Made by a program: the position numbers and the translations under genes. From Litoreibacter arenae DSM 19593 (lineage in GTDB: Bacteria; Pseudomonadota; Alphaproteobacteria; Rhodobacterales; Rhodobacteraceae): DNA of 64,000 nt. Under the pieces are notes generated by a model. That model was not told where the DNA came from, searched no databases, and worked only from the letters and a program-made list of their open reading frames with translations. The stretch's first letter is position 1; each line of letters begins with the position of its first letter. The stretch lies in contig NZ_KE557310.1 of NCBI RefSeq assembly GCF_000442275.2, positions 62,001 to 126,000 of the forward strand, given 5' to 3'. Of this stretch, positions 1-13,406 are shown in pieces.

Positions 1-327
1 TTCCAGCAGACCATTCTCAAGTTCCTGCCCGAAGACATGCGCCCCATGGGACCACGTCGCCTCAATGAGGAAACCGTGTCGCCGGACCGCATCGCCCTGA
101 CCGAGGATTTGTCACATATCGACGAGCTGTTGCGCAGCGGACTCGACGCTTTGCCGTATGTCGCGCCGTTTCTTCAAGGGCTGGCACGGCTTGCCGGTGA
201 TCCCGAACTTGAAACGGTCTCACGCAAGCTGACGAAGGCGCACATGTCTGGCGAGGGTCGACGCGACGCAATCCTAGCCACGCGGGCCGTCATTCAAACA
301 CGGCTGGATGTGCGCGAGCTGGTCTAA
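1..327 (+). CDS. C-terminal part of a protein of unknown function
   Basis: The reading frame is open from the first base of the window, so the gene begins upstream and only about 108 C-terminal residues are visible. The part seen is soluble and mostly helical in character, with many Leu, Arg and Glu residues, no membrane segment and no motif I recognise. The internal Met codon at 37 is not needed as a start, because coding-like sequence precedes it without a stop. The stop overlaps the stop of the convergent acetyltransferase gene by 4 bases. No function can be assigned from this fragment. Confidence 0.6.
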   Translation, partial: FQQTILKFLPEDMRPMGPRRLNEETVSPDRIALTEDLSHIDELLRSGLDALPYVAPFLQGLARLAGDPELETVSRKLTKAHMSGEGRRDAILATRAVIQTRLDVRELV

Positions 328-1031
328 AGCGCCGGATCTCTGGACACACGAACGGGTGCGGTCAGATCGCCCAGCCGCGACAACTGCTTGCCCTCGGCGT
401 CAAAATTCGACGGCGATAGCCACGTCCCGAACGCCTCTTTCAAGGCAGGCCATTCCGCGTCGATGCAGGCAAACCAGGCAGTGTCGCGGTTGCGCTCTTT
501 TACGACCGCCGCCTGCCGGAATACGCCCTCAAAGCTGAAGCCATAGCGTTCGGCGGCACGGCGCGAGGCGATGTTCGCAGCATTGCACTTCCACTCAAAG
601 CGCCGGTAACCGGCCTCGAACGCCCACTTCATCATCAGAAATATTGCCTCTGTCGCAGCGGCACTGCGCTGAAGCTCTGGCGAAAAGCAGATGTGTCCGA
701 GCTCGATCGACCCCGCCTCCGGCGAGATTCTCAAGTAACTTGCGACCCCGCTGGCCCGCCCCGTCGACACAGCCCTGACGGCGTAGAAGAACGGGTCGTC
801 GCCCTCTGCGACATCACGCACCCAAGCTTCGTAGTCTCCGGCGGATGCAAAAGGCCCGTAGGGCATGTAATCCCAGACGCCATCATCCGCCGAATTTGCG
901 CGATGCAAGTCCACGGCATGGCGGTCAGGTGTCAATCGCTCAAGCCTGACATATTGCCCTTCCAGCACGGCGGCGTCTGGCCGCGAAGGTGGCTTCCAGT
1001 CCTGAACAATATCTTGGTTCGCGTCTTTCAT
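324..1031 (-). CDS. GNAT family N-acetyltransferase, RimJ/RimL-like
   Basis: About 235 residues, the usual size for RimJ/RimL-type GNAT proteins, which transfer the acetyl group of acetyl-CoA to an amine; the substrate here cannot be told. The signs are the Y-V-R-L-E-R-L opening of the domain, the strand IELGHICFSPELQRSAAATEA that corresponds to the acetyl-CoA loop, and the C-terminal FEWKCNAANIASRRAAERYGF block. The ATG at 1031 is preferred because a GGGAAGGG sequence lies just upstream. An in-frame start at 1091 would run 23 bases into the DUF1501 gene. The gene lies 37 bases behind that gene on the same strand and could be read through from it. Confidence 0.85.
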   Translation of the reverse strand: MKDANQDIVQDWKPPSRPDAAVLEGQYVRLERLTPDRHAVDLHRANSADDGVWDYMPYGPFASAGDYEAWVRDVAEGDDPFFYAVRAVSTGRASGVASYLRISPEAGSIELGHICFSPELQRSAAATEAIFLMMKWAFEAGYRRFEWKCNAANIASRRAAERYGFSFEGVFRQAAVVKERNRDTAWFACIDAEWPALKEAFGTWLSPSNFDAEGKQLSRLGDLTAPVRVSRDPAL

Positions 1032-1068
1032 GACGGCAGGCCCTTCCCGGCTAGCATCGCAAACGATT

Positions 1069-2298
1069 TCAGGCCAGAAGGCCCGGATCACCTGCCATCT
1101 GTAGCCCCGGAAACACTATTGTTTGAAGAGTGCCAGCGTCCAGCCCATACATCCCGTGCATGAGCCACGCGATGTAGGATCGAACATCCGATGTGGGCAT
1201 CAGGTCGCGCCGCGCGTAGAGCGCCGCCTCGTCCAGCCCGGGCCAATCGCCATAGATGCGGCCGCCGCGGATGGCGCCGCCTGCCAGTATCATCGCCCCT
1301 CCGGTCCCGTGATCCGTGCCGCGCGTCCCGTTTTCCCGCGCCGTCCTGCCGAACTCCGTGACCGCCACCACCGCCGTCTTGTCCCAGCGGGCACCAAGCC
1401 TGTCCTTCAACGTCAGAAGCGCGTCCTGCAAGTTGCCCAGCGCTCTGGATATCCCGCGCGTCTGAGCGCTGTGGGTGTCCCAACCCCCAAGCGAGAACGC
1501 GGCAATACGGGCATCCTCATTCAACCGCCGCGCGGCGAAATCGGCCAGGACCGAAGCCTCCCCCGCCTGCTGCGCCACCTTCAGCGCCGCCCGCATATCC
1601 CGCCCCGACATGCCGAAGCTGTCGTCGCTCGCCAACCCCAGACTTTCCGCAATGGCAATCGCATCGTGGCTCGTTTCCTGAAACAGCGGATCGTCATGAT
1701 AAATCTGTTCAAGCAGCAACCGCGCCTGCGGCGACATATCCAGCCGCGCCTCCGGCGACCAACTCGACACCGGTGCGCGGCCCGACACCAGTTTCATTTC
1801 GGACCGCCCGATTGCAAACGCGGTCTCGGACCCGGCACCAGGCAGCACTTGCAGCATCCGGTTCAGCCAGCCGTCGCGCATCTGCGTGCTGTCCACATCC
1901 ATGCCCGTCCCCGCCTCCAGCAGGTCTTGCCCGTCGAAATGGCTGCGCTTGTCGCGGTAGGGCGTCGACACCGCATGCGCGACGGCCAAGTCTTGCTGCT
2001 GCCAAAGCGGCATCAACCCCGCCAAGGCCGGATGCAGCGCGAAAAACCCGTCAAGGTCGGTGCCGGAATTGTCCAACTCCATGCCCAAACCCGGCCGGTA
2101 CTGCCGCAAAAGCGGATCGCCCACGGGCCGCACCGCATCAAGCCCATCCATCGCCCCGCGCAGGATGATGACCACCAGCCTGTTATCCCCCGGCGCTTGC
2201 GCGAAGGTCATCGGCGTCATCAAAGGGCTTGCCGCCGCCGAGCATCCGAGGGCCGACGCACGCAGCAAAAACCCGCGGCGGGATATAGGGTCGGCCAT
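1069..2298 (-). CDS. DUF1501 family protein with Tat signal
   Basis: A 409-residue protein of the DUF1501 family, proteins of unknown biochemical role that share the alkaline-phosphatase-like fold. Residues 6-15 (SRRGFLLRAS) form a twin-arginine signal followed by a small-residue hydrophobic stretch and AQA, so the folded protein is probably exported by Tat to the periplasm. Family motifs include the GGWDTHSAQTRG block and TEFGRT...GTDHG near the C-terminus. It follows the DUF1800 gene with only 2 bases between them. These two families are very often neighbours, and they probably act together. The substrate is unknown. Confidence 0.9.
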   Translation of the reverse strand: MADPISRRGFLLRASALGCSAAASPLMTPMTFAQAPGDNRLVVIILRGAMDGLDAVRPVGDPLLRQYRPGLGMELDNSGTDLDGFFALHPALAGLMPLWQQQDLAVAHAVSTPYRDKRSHFDGQDLLEAGTGMDVDSTQMRDGWLNRMLQVLPGAGSETAFAIGRSEMKLVSGRAPVSSWSPEARLDMSPQARLLLEQIYHDDPLFQETSHDAIAIAESLGLASDDSFGMSGRDMRAALKVAQQAGEASVLADFAARRLNEDARIAAFSLGGWDTHSAQTRGISRALGNLQDALLTLKDRLGARWDKTAVVAVTEFGRTARENGTRGTDHGTGGAMILAGGAIRGGRIYGDWPGLDEAALYARRDLMPTSDVRSYIAWLMHGMYGLDAGTLQTIVFPGLQMAGDPGLLA

Positions 2299-3841: not shown

Positions 3842-4318
3842 ATGTCCGACATTTATACCCTGATCAAGAAAGACCACGACCACCACCGCAAGCTGCTCGA
3901 CCGGATCGAAGACACCACCGGCGCGTCGAAGGACCGCAAAGCCGCATGGGAAGACTTTTATCACGACGTCAAAAGCCACGCCGCCGCCGAGGAAGAGACA
4001 TTCTATTCCAAGCTCATCTCCAAGACATGGGGGCAGGATGCCGCCCGCCACTCGGTCCACGAGCACCAGCAGCTTGACGACCTGATGGAAGAACTCAACG
4101 ACATGGATATGTCGCAAGGCGCATGGCTCACCAAGTTCAAAACCCTACGCCACGACTACGAACACCATATCGAAGAGGAAGAAGACGAGGTCTTCACCCG
4201 CGCCCGCGAAGTCATCCCGGAGTCGGAGATCAAAGGCTACGGCGACCGGTTCACCTCCCGCAAAGCCGAAGAACGCAAACTGATCGACAAGAAGCGCGAG
4301 GACAGTCTGGAGGATTGA
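3842..4318 (+). CDS. hemerythrin HHE domain protein
   Basis: A 158-residue hemerythrin-type cation-binding protein. The histidine and acid ligands of a di-iron site are visible in order: DHDHHRKLL near residue 12, HAAAEEETFY near 45-55, HEHQQLDDL near 75 and HDYEHHIEEEEDEVF near 105-120. Such proteins bind O2, NO or iron and are often stress-induced; the ligand here cannot be told. The start at 3842 follows an AGGAGC ribosome binding site. The last 40 residues are highly charged. The gene stands alone behind a possible ECF-type promoter. Confidence 0.88.
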   Translation: MSDIYTLIKKDHDHHRKLLDRIEDTTGASKDRKAAWEDFYHDVKSHAAAEEETFYSKLISKTWGQDAARHSVHEHQQLDDLMEELNDMDMSQGAWLTKFKTLRHDYEHHIEEEEDEVFTRAREVIPESEIKGYGDRFTSRKAEERKLIDKKREDSLED

Positions 4319-4429
4319 CCTAGCTGCCGCTGCCGCGTTAAGGATGTTCTCATAAAGTTCCTGCACAAAGCGAAAAATTGTGCGAGTTACTCATTGCAGG
4401 AAAGTGCTGGAGGCATCAATATATTGGAT

Positions 4430-5062
4430 ATGAGCAGCAATCCATCACAAGACTTACGGGACTTCCTGTCCGGTGACAGTTTCGGCTGCGTCATGGCGGA
4501 TCCGCCGTGGCGTTTCACCAACCGGACCGGGAAGGTAGCACCTGAGCACAAGCGCCTTGCGCGCTATCCTACTATGACGGTGGAGGACATTTGCGCATTG
4601 CCTGTGTCGGATCATTTAATGGATCGTGCACATTGCTACATGTGGGTTCCAAATGCCTTGCTGCCTGAGGGACTGCGCGTATTGAATGCTTGGGGGTTTG
4701 AATACAAATCAAACATTATTTGGCATAAGATACGCAAAGATGGCGGCTCAGACGGCCGTGGTGTTGGTTTCTATTTTCGCAATGTGACCGAGATACTTCT
4801 TTTTGGGGTACGTGGCAAAAATATCCGCACCCTCGCTCCCGGTCGCCGCCAAGTGAATATGATGCAAACGCGTAAAAGGGAGCATTCCCGAAAACCTGAT
4901 GAGCAATACGAGCTTATCGAAAGTTGTTCTTGGGGACCGTATTTGGAACTGTTCGGTCGTGGCATCCGTGACGGATGGACAGTGTGGGGAAATCAGGCTG
5001 ATGCTGATTACAAACCAGATTGGAACACTTACAGCTACAATTCCGGTGTCGCGGCGGAATAA
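4430..5062 (+). CDS. MT-A70 family adenine-N6 DNA methyltransferase (putative modification enzyme)
   Basis: About 211 residues of the MT-A70 family, S-adenosylmethionine-dependent adenine-N6 methyltransferases. In bacteria these modify DNA; M.MunI is a type II example. The catalytic DPPW lies near residue 23, followed by the MWVPNALLPEGLRVLNAWGF block and the C-terminal SWGPYLELFGR segment. A TTG at 4394 would add 12 residues; the ATG at 4430 is preferred but neither has an ideal ribosome binding site. The gene is visibly more AT-rich than its surroundings. It converges on, and overlaps by 28 bases, a BglII/BstYI-family endonuclease gene, so a restriction-modification role is likely. The recognition site is unknown. 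Confidence 0.85.
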   Translation: MSSNPSQDLRDFLSGDSFGCVMADPPWRFTNRTGKVAPEHKRLARYPTMTVEDICALPVSDHLMDRAHCYMWVPNALLPEGLRVLNAWGFEYKSNIIWHKIRKDGGSDGRGVGFYFRNVTEILLFGVRGKNIRTLAPGRRQVNMMQTRKREHSRKPDEQYELIESCSWGPYLELFGRGIRDGWTVWGNQADADYKPDWNTYSYNSGVAAE

Positions 5063-5790
5063 TCTTTAACAACGCTCACCGGCAAGCCTATTAACAATAG
5101 TGGACACGGGTTGCCGACACCCCTGTTAACACGCGTCACCAACTTATCCCAATGCGTTGTGGCTTGCCCATATTTATCCGATACGAACGACTCGGCAAAA
5201 GCTTGGGCGAATGGCATCTGTTTGCTTAATTTGTCGTCAAGCATCTTTCGTTGGCGGGCAGTGCGCTCCTTCATACCCCACTCCTCCAGCTCAGACGTGG
5301 AGATAACTCCAGATTGCTCAATCACCCATCGAACAATCTGTGTCATATGATTTTGTAATGATGCGCCGCGCGTAATCAAAATCCCCAGCGAAATAGCGCT
5401 TTGCGCATGCAAACGCTGGAAGTTCTCCAAGTCCCGATCAAAAAACGGATCCTTGTTGTTCCACTCGATTTCAAGAGCAAGGACTCCCTCACTGGCGCGA
5501 TAGACGTGGTCGATTTCATGACTAATCGCCTCACGTTCGACACCATCAACGATGGTCTTGACCACGAACTCGTGTTTGGGCCAACCTTTCTGGTACAATG
5601 CGTCACGCAATCGCATTGTAGAAGCGGCCTGCCCCCCACCGCTTCCAACAATTTCTTTGGCCTCTATCGTAAATGCGGCCAAGACTTCAATGATTTGGCT
5701 TGCAACCTCTGGATAATCTCCTTGCAGGATCGCCTCGGCATGGTTTTTTGCCAGTACATCAAAACCCTTCGCCCTCAAGCCATCAAACAC
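5035..5790 (-). CDS. BglII/BstYI-family type II restriction endonuclease
   Basis: A 251-residue protein resembling the BglII/BstYI endonuclease family. The core contains EIDHV, then LEIEWNNKDPFFDRDL near residues 105-120, then NFQRLHAQSAISLGILITRG, which together match the metal-binding core and following helix of that family. Family members cut RGATCY or AGATCT; whether this one does is unknown. Translation seems to start at a GTG (5790) whose first base is the last base of the aspS stop codon (TAGTG), so it may be translated by coupling to aspS. The 3' end overlaps the convergent methyltransferase gene. Base composition is less GC-rich than in aspS, which suggests acquisition. Confidence 0.8.
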   Translation of the reverse strand: MFDGLRAKGFDVLAKNHAEAILQGDYPEVASQIIEVLAAFTIEAKEIVGSGGGQAASTMRLRDALYQKGWPKHEFVVKTIVDGVEREAISHEIDHVYRASEGVLALEIEWNNKDPFFDRDLENFQRLHAQSAISLGILITRGASLQNHMTQIVRWVIEQSGVISTSELEEWGMKERTARQRKMLDDKLSKQMPFAQAFAESFVSDKYGQATTHWDKLVTRVNRGVGNPCPLLLIGLPVSVVKDYSAATPEL

Positions 5791-7571
5791 TAGCCAGCAT
5801 CCTGCGGAATGACCCGCAAGCCCAGTTCCATCAGCTGATCCGACATCGGTTCGCTTGGAGCGTTCATCATCAAATCCTCGGCGCGTTGGTTCATCGGGAA
5901 CAGGATCACCTCGCGGATGTTGGCCTCGTCGGCCAGCAGCATCACGATGCGGTCGATCCCCGCAGCACAGCCGCCGTGTGGCGGTGCGCCGTATTTGAAC
6001 GCGTTGACCATCCCGCCGAAGCGCTTTCGCACTTCCTCTTCGCCGTAGCCCGCCAATTCGAACGCCTTGAACATGATCTCCGGCTTGTGGTTCCGGATCG
6101 CGCCCGAGATCAGCTCGTAGCCGTTGCAGGCAAGGTCGTATTGATAGCCCAGCACGTCCAGCGGATCGCCTTGCAGCGCCTCCATGCCACCCTGAGGCAT
6201 CGAGAACGGGTTATGCGAGAAGTCGATCTTGCCGCTCTCCTCGTCCGCCTCGTACATCGGGAAGTCCACGATCCACGCGAAGGCAAAGCGGTCTTGGTCG
6301 GTCAGCCCTAGCTCGTTGCCGATCTCCACCCGCGCACGGCCAGCCACGCCCTCGAACGACGATGGCTTGCCGCCCAAGAAGAACGCCGCGTCACCGACCC
6401 CTAGGCCAAGCTGCTGGCGGATCGCTTCAGTGCGCTCGGGGCCGATGTTTTTCGCCAAAGGCCCAGCAGCTTCCATGCCGTCACCCTGATCACGCCAGAA
6501 GATATACCCCATCCCCGGCAACCCTTCCTTCTGCGCAAACGCATTCATCCGGTCGCAGAACTTGCGCGACCCGCCGCCGGGCGCAGGGATAGCGCGGATT
6601 TCGGTGCCGTCCTGCTCCAATATCTTGGCGAAAATCGCAAAGCCGGAGCCTTTGAAATGCTCGGACACCACCTGCATCTTGATCGGGTTGCGCAGGTCCG
6701 GCTTGTCGGTGCCATACCAAAGCGCCGCGTCGCGGTAGCTGATCTGCGGCCAGACCTCGTCCACCTTGCGGCCGCCGCCGAACTCCTCGAACACGCCCTG
6801 GATAACCGGCTGGATCGTGTCGAACACGTCCTGCTGCTCCACAAAGCTCATCTCAAGGTCAAGCTGGTAGAAGTCCGTGGGCGAGCGGTCGGCACGCGGG
6901 TCTTCGTCACGAAAACACGGGGCGATCTGGAAATACTTGTCAAAGCCCGACACCATCAACAACTGCTTGAACTGCTGCGGGGCTTGCGGCAGGGCGTAGA
7001 ACTTGCCCGGATGCAGCCGCGACGGCACCAGAAAGTCGCGCGCACCCTCAGGCGAGGACGCGGTAATGATCGGCGTCTGGAATTCCTTGAAATCCAGATC
7101 CCACATCCGCTTGCGCATCGACGCCACCACGTCGGAGCGCAGGATCATGTTGCGCTGCAATTTCTCGCGGCGCAGGTCGAGAAAGCGGTATTTCAGCCGC
7201 GTCTCTTCGGGGTATTCCTGATCGCCGAACACCATCAACGGCAACTCGTCCGACGCGCCCAGAACTTCGATGTCACGGATAAACACCTCGATCTCGCCCG
7301 TGGGCAGCTTGGGGTTCACCAGTTCCGGCGCGCGGGCCATGACGTTGCCGTCGATGCGGATGCACCATTCCGACCGCACCTTCTCGACCTCCTTGAACAC
7401 GGGGCTGTCGGGGTCGGCCAGCACTTGGGTGATCCCGTAATGGTCGCGCAGGTCGATGAACAGGATGCCGCCGTGGTCGCGGACCCGATGCACCCAGCCC
7501 GACAGGCGAACGTTGTCGCCGACATTGGCGGCGGTCAGGTCGGCACAGGTGTGGCTGCGGTAAGCGTGCAT
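5790..7571 (-). CDS. aspS: aspartate--tRNA ligase
   Basis: A 593-residue class II aminoacyl-tRNA synthetase of the bacterial AspRS type. It has an N-terminal OB-fold anticodon-binding domain ([20 protein letters not shown] near residue 25), motif 2 [21 protein letters not shown] near 215, the bacterial GAD insert in the middle, and motif 3 near the C-terminus (GIDRIVMLL). It charges tRNA-Asp, and in some bacteria also tRNA-Asn. The ATG at 7571 (MHAYRSHTC) matches the usual start; an in-frame start at 7616 would add 15 unlikely residues. The stop overlaps the start of the endonuclease gene by one base. Confidence 0.97.
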
Positions 7572-12551: not shown

Positions 12552-13406
12552 ATGGAACAAAACTTGGGCTATTTCTCGAGGAATTATCTAAAAAGTAAGA
12601 CAAATGCATCTGACGACACTCGGATGCGGCACCGGATTGCCAAATATCTTGAAGAATACGACGGCGACGAAAATCTCGATTTCGGAAACTACATCGAAAA
12701 AGAGCTAGGAATACCTGTTCTTACGAACAGCGGCTATGGCCCCTATGTTCCTTGGGTGGAAGTTCTGAGCAAATGCGATATCGGTGACTTTCTAGACATA
12801 CTAACCGCTATACACAGATTTAAACCCGAGAGAACAATCAGCAAGCAGCGCGTTTCTGCACTTTACGTGTTTCGCACCTTCGTTGAACGCGTGTTCAGAG
12901 AGCAACATGTTGCCTACCGAATTGACGAGAATGGTGCTGTCCACCCCTTTATAGACGTCGCTTTTTCTACAAACCTTTCTGATGTATTAGATAATCTTGA
13001 TGACCATGACTTGTCAGCGGCGGCGTCACATTTAGAGCAAGCCGAAATGGCGCTTCTTAGCACCAAATTAGACACTCGGCAGGCCGTTAGGTCTGCCTTT
13101 GACGCTTTGGAAAATCTTTCTAAAATCCATGCTGTAAAAGCTACTCAGTTAAACAAAGACGTGGCTATTAATCAGCTCAAACCAAAGCTTTGCTTTGTTT
13201 CTGAACCTCATGAATTTGATAGAATTCCAACAGAAAAATTGTTTGATGGTTTCTTGCAGTGGATAAACGCGGCGCATTTTTATCGCCATGAAGCCGGAAA
13301 ACCAGAACCAACTGCACCTTCCAAGGAGTTTGCCACTAATTTTGTCGCTCAGGGAATAAATTATGCTAGATGGCTGGCTTCGATAAAGACAGAAACCGAT
13401 CTGTAG
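12552..13406 (+). CDS. abortive-infection-like protein, probable HEPN-type orphan
   Basis: A 284-residue protein without membrane segments. Its middle part, with FRTFVERVFREQHVAYRI followed by GAVHPFIDVAFSTN near residues 115-145, and its C-terminal FYRHEAGKPEPTAPSKEFA block resemble proteins annotated as abortive infection (Abi_C/HEPN-like), many of which are RNases or toxins in phage defence. This is family resemblance only; no strict RxxxxH motif was confirmed. The ATG follows a strong AGGGGGA ribosome binding site. Codon use is clearly AT-richer than carB upstream and the lipoprotein downstream, which suggests recent transfer. No toxin or antitoxin partner is visible next to it. Confidence 0.6.
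   Translation: MEQNLGYFSRNYLKSKTNASDDTRMRHRIAKYLEEYDGDENLDFGNYIEKELGIPVLTNSGYGPYVPWVEVLSKCDIGDFLDILTAIHRFKPERTISKQRVSALYVFRTFVERVFREQHVAYRIDENGAVHPFIDVAFSTNLSDVLDNLDDHDLSAAASHLEQAEMALLSTKLDTRQAVRSAFDALENLSKIHAVKATQLNKDVAINQLKPKLCFVSEPHEFDRIPTEKLFDGFLQWINAAHFYRHEAGKPEPTAPSKEFATNFVAQGINYARWLASIKTETDL

Follow-up and report, generated by a model that had tools for sequence, protein, structure and literature searches.

The locus

The window analyzed here, a stretch of 64,000 nucleotides from Litoreibacter arenae DSM 19593 (contig NZ_KE557310.1, positions 62,001 to 126,000), contains a methyltransferase gene and a restriction endonuclease gene, MT and RE below, flanked by hemerythrin, DUF1800 and DUF1501 genes on one side and by aspS on the other. 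The relevant features are as follows.

4430..5062, plus strand: MT-A70 family DNA methyltransferase (MT), predicted N6-adenine type, RGATCY; ATG start, 210 aa (Pfam, PADLOC, DPPW motif, likeness to M.Nph3I)
5035..5790, minus strand: Endonuc-BglII (BglII/BstYI) family restriction endonuclease (RE), predicted RGATCY cutter; GTG start, 251 aa (Pfam, Foldseek, invariant residues)
5035..5062: overlap of the MT and RE 3′ ends, 28 bases; the RE residues after about 243 are antisense to the MT C-terminus
5788..5792, minus strand: overlap of the aspS stop and the RE start (TAGTG), with AGGA upstream, within the aspS 3′ end; read from the sequence
5793..7571, minus strand: aspS, aspartyl-tRNA synthetase, coding part without the stop codon (Pfam tRNA-synt_2, E 1.5e-109); conserved neighbor, outside the system
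3842..4318, plus strand: hemerythrin gene, neighbor on the MT side
324..1091: GNAT gene of the window

A preliminary description of this DNA had reported two converging genes with a 28-base overlap, both richer in AT than their neighbors. The open reading frame coordinates (4430–5062 on the plus strand, 5035–5790 on the minus strand, 5035–5062 shared) agree with the former statement; the mechanical MT reading frame begins at a TTG at 4394, and the ATG at 4430 was called as the start. The latter is borne out by the GC content, which is 0.512 for MT and 0.501 for RE as against 0.622 for aspS, 0.568 for the hemerythrin gene and 0.611 for the window, and by the third-position GC (0.53 and 0.54 versus 0.83 for aspS and 0.77 for the hemerythrin gene). 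The start codon of RE and the stop codon of aspS share one base (5′-TAGTG-3′, minus strand). At E ≤ 0.001, the genome has one match to each of the MT-A70 and Endonuc-BglII families, both at this locus. No regulator-like reading frame of at least 60 codons was found between the hemerythrin gene and aspS, and no promoter-like site in 4300–5900, where the search used the sigma-70 consensus only and means little for this organism.

Two protein families and a predicted BstYI-like fold

MT covers the full Pfam MT-A70 profile (PF05063) with 103 bits (cut-off 23.9; E 2.2e-29), matches PADLOC MTase_II at E 2.4e-91 and carries, as MADPPWRF, the DPPW motif, which we take to be the hallmark of the MT-A70 family and used as a sign of membership. 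RE matches Pfam Endonuc-BglII (PF09195) with 98.2 bits (cut-off 26; E 5.3e-28) over profile positions 1–162 of 163. Both matches are far above chance level. The assignments first made from the sequence, an MT-A70 methyltransferase and a BglII/BstYI-family endonuclease, thus hold, the latter having been staked on just this match to PF09195.

RE had no match in PADLOC or NCBIfam, and BglII and BstYI were not reached by sequence-only searches of the PDB, whether with the single RE protein or with a profile of 42 sequences. An alignment of the window RE with 41 of its best 80 relatives served to predict a structure (mean pLDDT 89.1). With this model as the query, Foldseek returned three PDB matches at E ≤ 0.001, all of them BstYI (E 1.3e-5 to 5.9e-5), with TM-scores of 0.49–0.50 on the predicted model. 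Residues D94, E107, E109, W110, N111, N112, K113 and D114 are invariant in the window RE and the 41 relatives, and the block EIEWNNKD that they form in large part occurs with identical letters in R.Nph3I, the endonuclease of a phage system described below. Since E107 and E109 are invariant in all 42 sequences, the active site reads E-x-E, and D94, E107 and E109 are the putative catalytic residues. The E-x-Q arrangement of BglII, in which Q replaces the active-site K, was not found: the window and the 41 relatives have E107-I-E109. The place of the usual lysine is taken by E in BamHI and by Q in BglII (PMC4081073); the window RE has E there.

Likely target of the system

Over residues 7–205, MT shares 66.8% identity with M.Nph3I of phage NrS-3, and RE shares 31.0% with R.Nph3I. 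A phage collection held 322 records matching MT at E ≤ 1e-10; the five best (67–68% identity, the next match being at 43%) coincide with the five records matched by RE at E ≤ 0.001, NrS-3 among them. In the report on Nph3I, R.Nph3I cleaves all four RGATCY probes and the product of M.Nph3I is RG(6mA)TCY (PMC10734518). Methyltransferases that form m6A in RGATCY are also described from Azospirillum thiophilum (PMC4706337) and Chromohalobacter salexigens (PMC3526280). From this homology we infer RGATCY as the target, adenine as the methylated base and a cutting activity for RE, and the early suggestion of a protected adenine, for example in RGATCY, stands as the best guess, given what the 67% relative M.Nph3I makes. 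Because BstYI is, according to the same report, not blocked by 6mA (PMC10734518), the case for protection by adenine methylation depends on the resemblance to Nph3I.

The pair might instead be a working one with another target, for instance a single form of the site (AGATCT or GGATCC) or another sequence that includes GATC. The specificity of RE could differ from that of R.Nph3I, because the identity is only 31% and RE carries about 50 inserted residues, and BglII, of the same family, cut the AGATCT probe only (PMC10734518); set against the close identity of MT to M.Nph3I and the match of the predicted RE structure to BstYI, we regard a different target as improbable.

Depletion of RGATCY is not diagnostic of the system. 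The observed/expected ratio, calculated on both strands with a maximal-order Markov model, was 0.52 for the own genome (580,100 bases), 0.60 for six genomes of the genus that lack this endonuclease family (793,450 bases) and 0.69 for the loci of the best 80 of at least 577 relatives (910,647 bases). Among 96 degenerate palindromes, RGATCY ranked lowest in the own and the six same-genus genomes and second lowest in the relatives' loci. Because the depletion is nearly as strong in genomes without the family (0.60 versus 0.52), it is not creditable to this system, and we rejected it as evidence.

The characterized counterpart of the window system is Nph3I (Nitratiruptor phage NrS-3, LC545444.1; PMC10734518), which combines an Endonuc-BglII endonuclease bearing the same EIEWNNKDPFFDRDL block with an MT-A70-like methyltransferase, and for which RGATCY with m6A has been demonstrated. 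It differs in gene order, RE preceding MT in the same direction with a regulator gene downstream, whereas the window pair is convergent; R.Nph3I is also shorter (195 aa), lacking the extra segment of the window RE, and the system is phage-borne rather than placed behind aspS. The RMC system of Acinetobacter baumannii A118, which we liken to the window by description and not by sequence, also joins a BglII/BstYI-family endonuclease to adenine methylation of RGATCY; it restricts incoming DNA in vivo, and Dam methylation protects (PMC10287943). Its methyltransferase is annotated as a DNA adenine methylase, the term MT-A70 being absent from the main text of that report, and a helix-turn-helix regulator lies between its two genes (PMC10287943). 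In another alphaproteobacterium, Rhodobacter blasticus 28/5, M.RsaIII methylates RGATCY, but as m4C, not m6A (PMC6256690). The closest solved structure to the window RE is that of BstYI (RGATCY), for which the best structural alignment shows 14% sequence identity. BglII (AGATCT) belongs to the same Pfam family, PF09195, which bears its name, and is partnered by a methyltransferase of the m4C type.

The pairing is common, and the partner follows the endonuclease branch

A scan of genome contigs gave at least 577 relatives of RE, of which the best 80 were analyzed. An MT-A70 gene lies convergent to RE in 76 of these 80 and divergent in two, with gaps of up to 1.4 kb; none was found in the remaining two (L038 and L059), both on short contigs. 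RE and MT are thus linked and conserved together within 1.4 kb in 78 of the 80 best relatives, the linkage expected of a type II system, and together with the two Pfam families this supports the original call of a type II restriction-modification locus.

Because the best 80 relatives are biased towards the window, we surveyed the whole Pfam family. Endonuc-BglII was present in 29 of 385 genomes of the class and in 10 of 398 of the phylum, the own genome being included in both counts. The survey comprised 36 loci (L165–L201 minus L192, which is a further copy from a genome already represented; the own locus and L090 were left out, and a small number of other matches yielded no locus). Within 1.5 kb, the partner was an MT-A70 gene in 20, a gene for a protein with the SPPY motif in 12, both in one (L181) and neither in three, one of which (L198) begins near a contig end. 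We take SPPY to mark N4-cytosine methyltransferases, and the N4 label of these partners has this basis; the five SPPY proteins that were scanned all matched Pfam N6_N4_Mtase. The locus had been introduced as unusual, an uncommon combination of a BglII-family endonuclease with an MT-A70 enzyme. We reject this part: MT-A70 accompanies 78 of the 80 best relatives and is the commonest partner in the survey (20 of 36), and a BglII-family endonuclease with adenine methylation of RGATCY had already been published (PMC10734518, PMC10287943).

The relation between active site and partner was read in 50 loci (L083–L096 and L165–L201 minus L192), five of which (L092–L096) had been picked from phages and plasmids by likeness to the window. 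The motif was read by script in 44: 30 had E with MT-A70, one (L096) combined E and a methyltransferase of the D12 adenine class, 10 had Q with SPPY, and three had E with no partner in reach. The partner class therefore follows the RE branch: in 41 of 41 loci with both features read, E-x-E goes with adenine types and E-x-Q, as in BglII, with SPPY. The six loci not read by script were judged by eye. L091, L190 and L201, whose partners are of the SPPY kind, have Q where the residue is expected; L186 (MT-A70) has E and a stop in frame; L191 (MT-A70) is too short for the motif; and L181, with both kinds beside it, has R. Across the 50 loci, no E-type RE with an SPPY partner alone and no Q-type RE with MT-A70 was seen. 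The E-or-Q residue, matching the partner class in 41 of 41 loci, can aid annotation.

Two cases deserve separate mention. L181 (genome G297), the sole locus of the 50 with both partners, encodes in a row an SPPY methyltransferase, a BglII-family RE in which R occupies the E/Q position, and a methyltransferase of the MT-A70 family. A class genome, G336, has four equal-score matches to the BglII-family RE (L179, L192 and two more places), as if carried by a repeated mobile element.

The overlap of the two genes

Of the 76 convergent relatives among the best 80 of at least 577, 62 have no overlap (19 of them abutting within 4 bases, with gaps ranging up to 1,291 bp), and we rejected the overlap as a general feature. 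The other 14 overlap by 12–34 bp, eight of them by exactly 28 bp. In 12 of the 80 best relatives, the RE stop codon aligns with residue 243–244; the letters past those stops resemble the last residues of the window RE because the MT C-terminus is encoded there on the opposite strand. These stops represent the usual C-terminus (in L024, after an insertion), and we rejected decay of RE in these relatives. The overlap is best read as the window RE running on beyond its usual end. The gap between RE and MT exceeds 450 bp in 14 of the 76 convergent relatives; in L064, an L,D-transpeptidase-like gene, recognized by eye, lies between them (6724–7299).

In a family sample of 345 genomes, which is less biased because each genus contributes about one, RE was matched in 47 and strongly in 31 (own genome included). 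That MT persists as an orphan or regulatory enzyme beside an inactive or decaying RE is very improbable: MT is indeed the better conserved (70–92% identity in 78 relatives versus 53–78% for RE in 80, the best of at least 577), and seven of 51 MT genomes of the family sample (E ≤ 1e-60) have no RE match (E ≤ 0.001) as against three of 47 in reverse, but the RE frame is intact, every residue that its relatives keep invariant is present, and the 12 stops in the relatives' alignments fall at the usual C-terminus, outside the domain. The seven genomes with MT and without RE at these thresholds (G924, G926, G949, G960, G981, G982 and G1072) may hold orphan methyltransferases.

A recurrent address behind aspS

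Among the best 80 of at least 577 relatives, aspS lies upstream of RE, on the same strand and within 1.8 kb, in 49. RE starts no more than 17 bp from the aspS stop in 33 of the 80, and the count is the same at 60 bp. A Shine–Dalgarno-like string lies inside the aspS end in 29 of these 33 close cases; aspS ends in similar letters also where the cassette of RE and MT is absent. Of the 31 best relatives without aspS, 27 truly lack it within 1.5 kb, because their upstream sequence is longer than that. Where aspS and RE stand apart, other genes of the region can lie in between: a GNAT gene like that of the window stands between aspS and RE in L064 and L047, as judged by eye.

The family sample gave a similar picture. 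Besides the own genome, a locus was obtained for 29 strong carriers, some of which are probably also among the best 80 relatives; aspS was in the 1.5-kb flank in 22 of these 29, upstream on the same strand as judged by eye, and MT in 25. Six window neighbors, aspS included, were found in none of 51 further family loci, mostly of other branches (L083–L096, L165–L201). This search is valid because the positive controls were recovered from the same 51 loci, RE in 35 and MT in 33. Nearest to the window branch among them are L090, L094, L183 and L184, in a wider-family tree from which seven loci were dropped for want of a clean frame and in which the row L176 is probably in the wrong frame. A search of the literature on restriction-modification with aspS, covering Rhodobacteraceae and hotspots, turned up no report of an aspS address. 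The recurrent address of this branch is unexpected and is the part that merits a further look.

Gain or loss, and probable exchange, at the aspS site

Within the genus, the Endonuc-BglII family occurs in five of 20 other genomes, on other branches and with MT-A70 genes of their own (L087 by motif only). G001 and G009 show the same neighborhood minus the cassette, with the hemerythrin gene beginning about 40 bases behind aspS.

Gene trees of 43 aspS-linked loci gave normalized Robinson–Foulds distances of 0.88 for RE versus aspS, 0.85 for MT versus aspS and 0.77 for RE versus MT; distances still correlate across the three trees (Mantel, 1 in 1000 for all three). As yardsticks against aspS, carB gave 0.60 (28 loci; RE 0.84 and MT 0.76 there), DUF1800 0.17 (nine loci; RE and MT both 0.83), CFA 0.76 (24 loci; RE 0.86, MT 0.76) and hemerythrin 0.82 (14 loci; RE 0.82, MT 0.73), so that the CFA and hemerythrin trees are about as discordant with aspS as the cassette trees. 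Simple vertical descent with aspS lacks support in the gene trees, and the tree of RE does not agree with that of MT either. By this rough test, the cassette has likely been exchanged at the aspS site.

Interpretation

We consider it very probable that the locus is an ordinary type II restriction-modification system of the Nph3I type, with RGATCY as its site and N6-adenine methylation as its protection. MT, read from the strand opposite to aspS and RE, would mark the RGATCY sites of the host genome at their adenine, and the BstYI-like RE would cut unmarked RGATCY in incoming phage or plasmid DNA. RE would probably be translated from the aspS message, with a ribosome-binding site supplied by the aspS 3′ end; it is position that suggests this coupling. 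The system itself, as observed in its families, predicted fold, conserved residues, linkage and address, is ordinary: an existing, widespread pairing at a recurrent chromosomal address.

More tentatively, we suggest as a possibility, and a doubtful one, that in Rhodobacterales the aspS end is a standing docking site for this branch of restriction-modification systems, where RE exploits the message and the ribosome-binding site of aspS and recombination between relatives replaces the cassette again and again. If so, restriction would be coupled to the expression of an essential gene rather than to a controller protein. A restriction-modification system at a recurrent address behind an essential gene offers a testable case both of expression without a controller protein and of exchange at one constant position.

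A second AT-rich island (GC 0.43–0.46) lies elsewhere in the window, directly behind carB (12552–13406, plus strand). Its product of 284 aa has a sub-threshold match to the AbiJ N-terminal profile (18.2 bits, cut-off 34) and a weak match to PADLOC PDC-S32 (E 8e-5), which, judging by its name, we take to be a phage-defence candidate.
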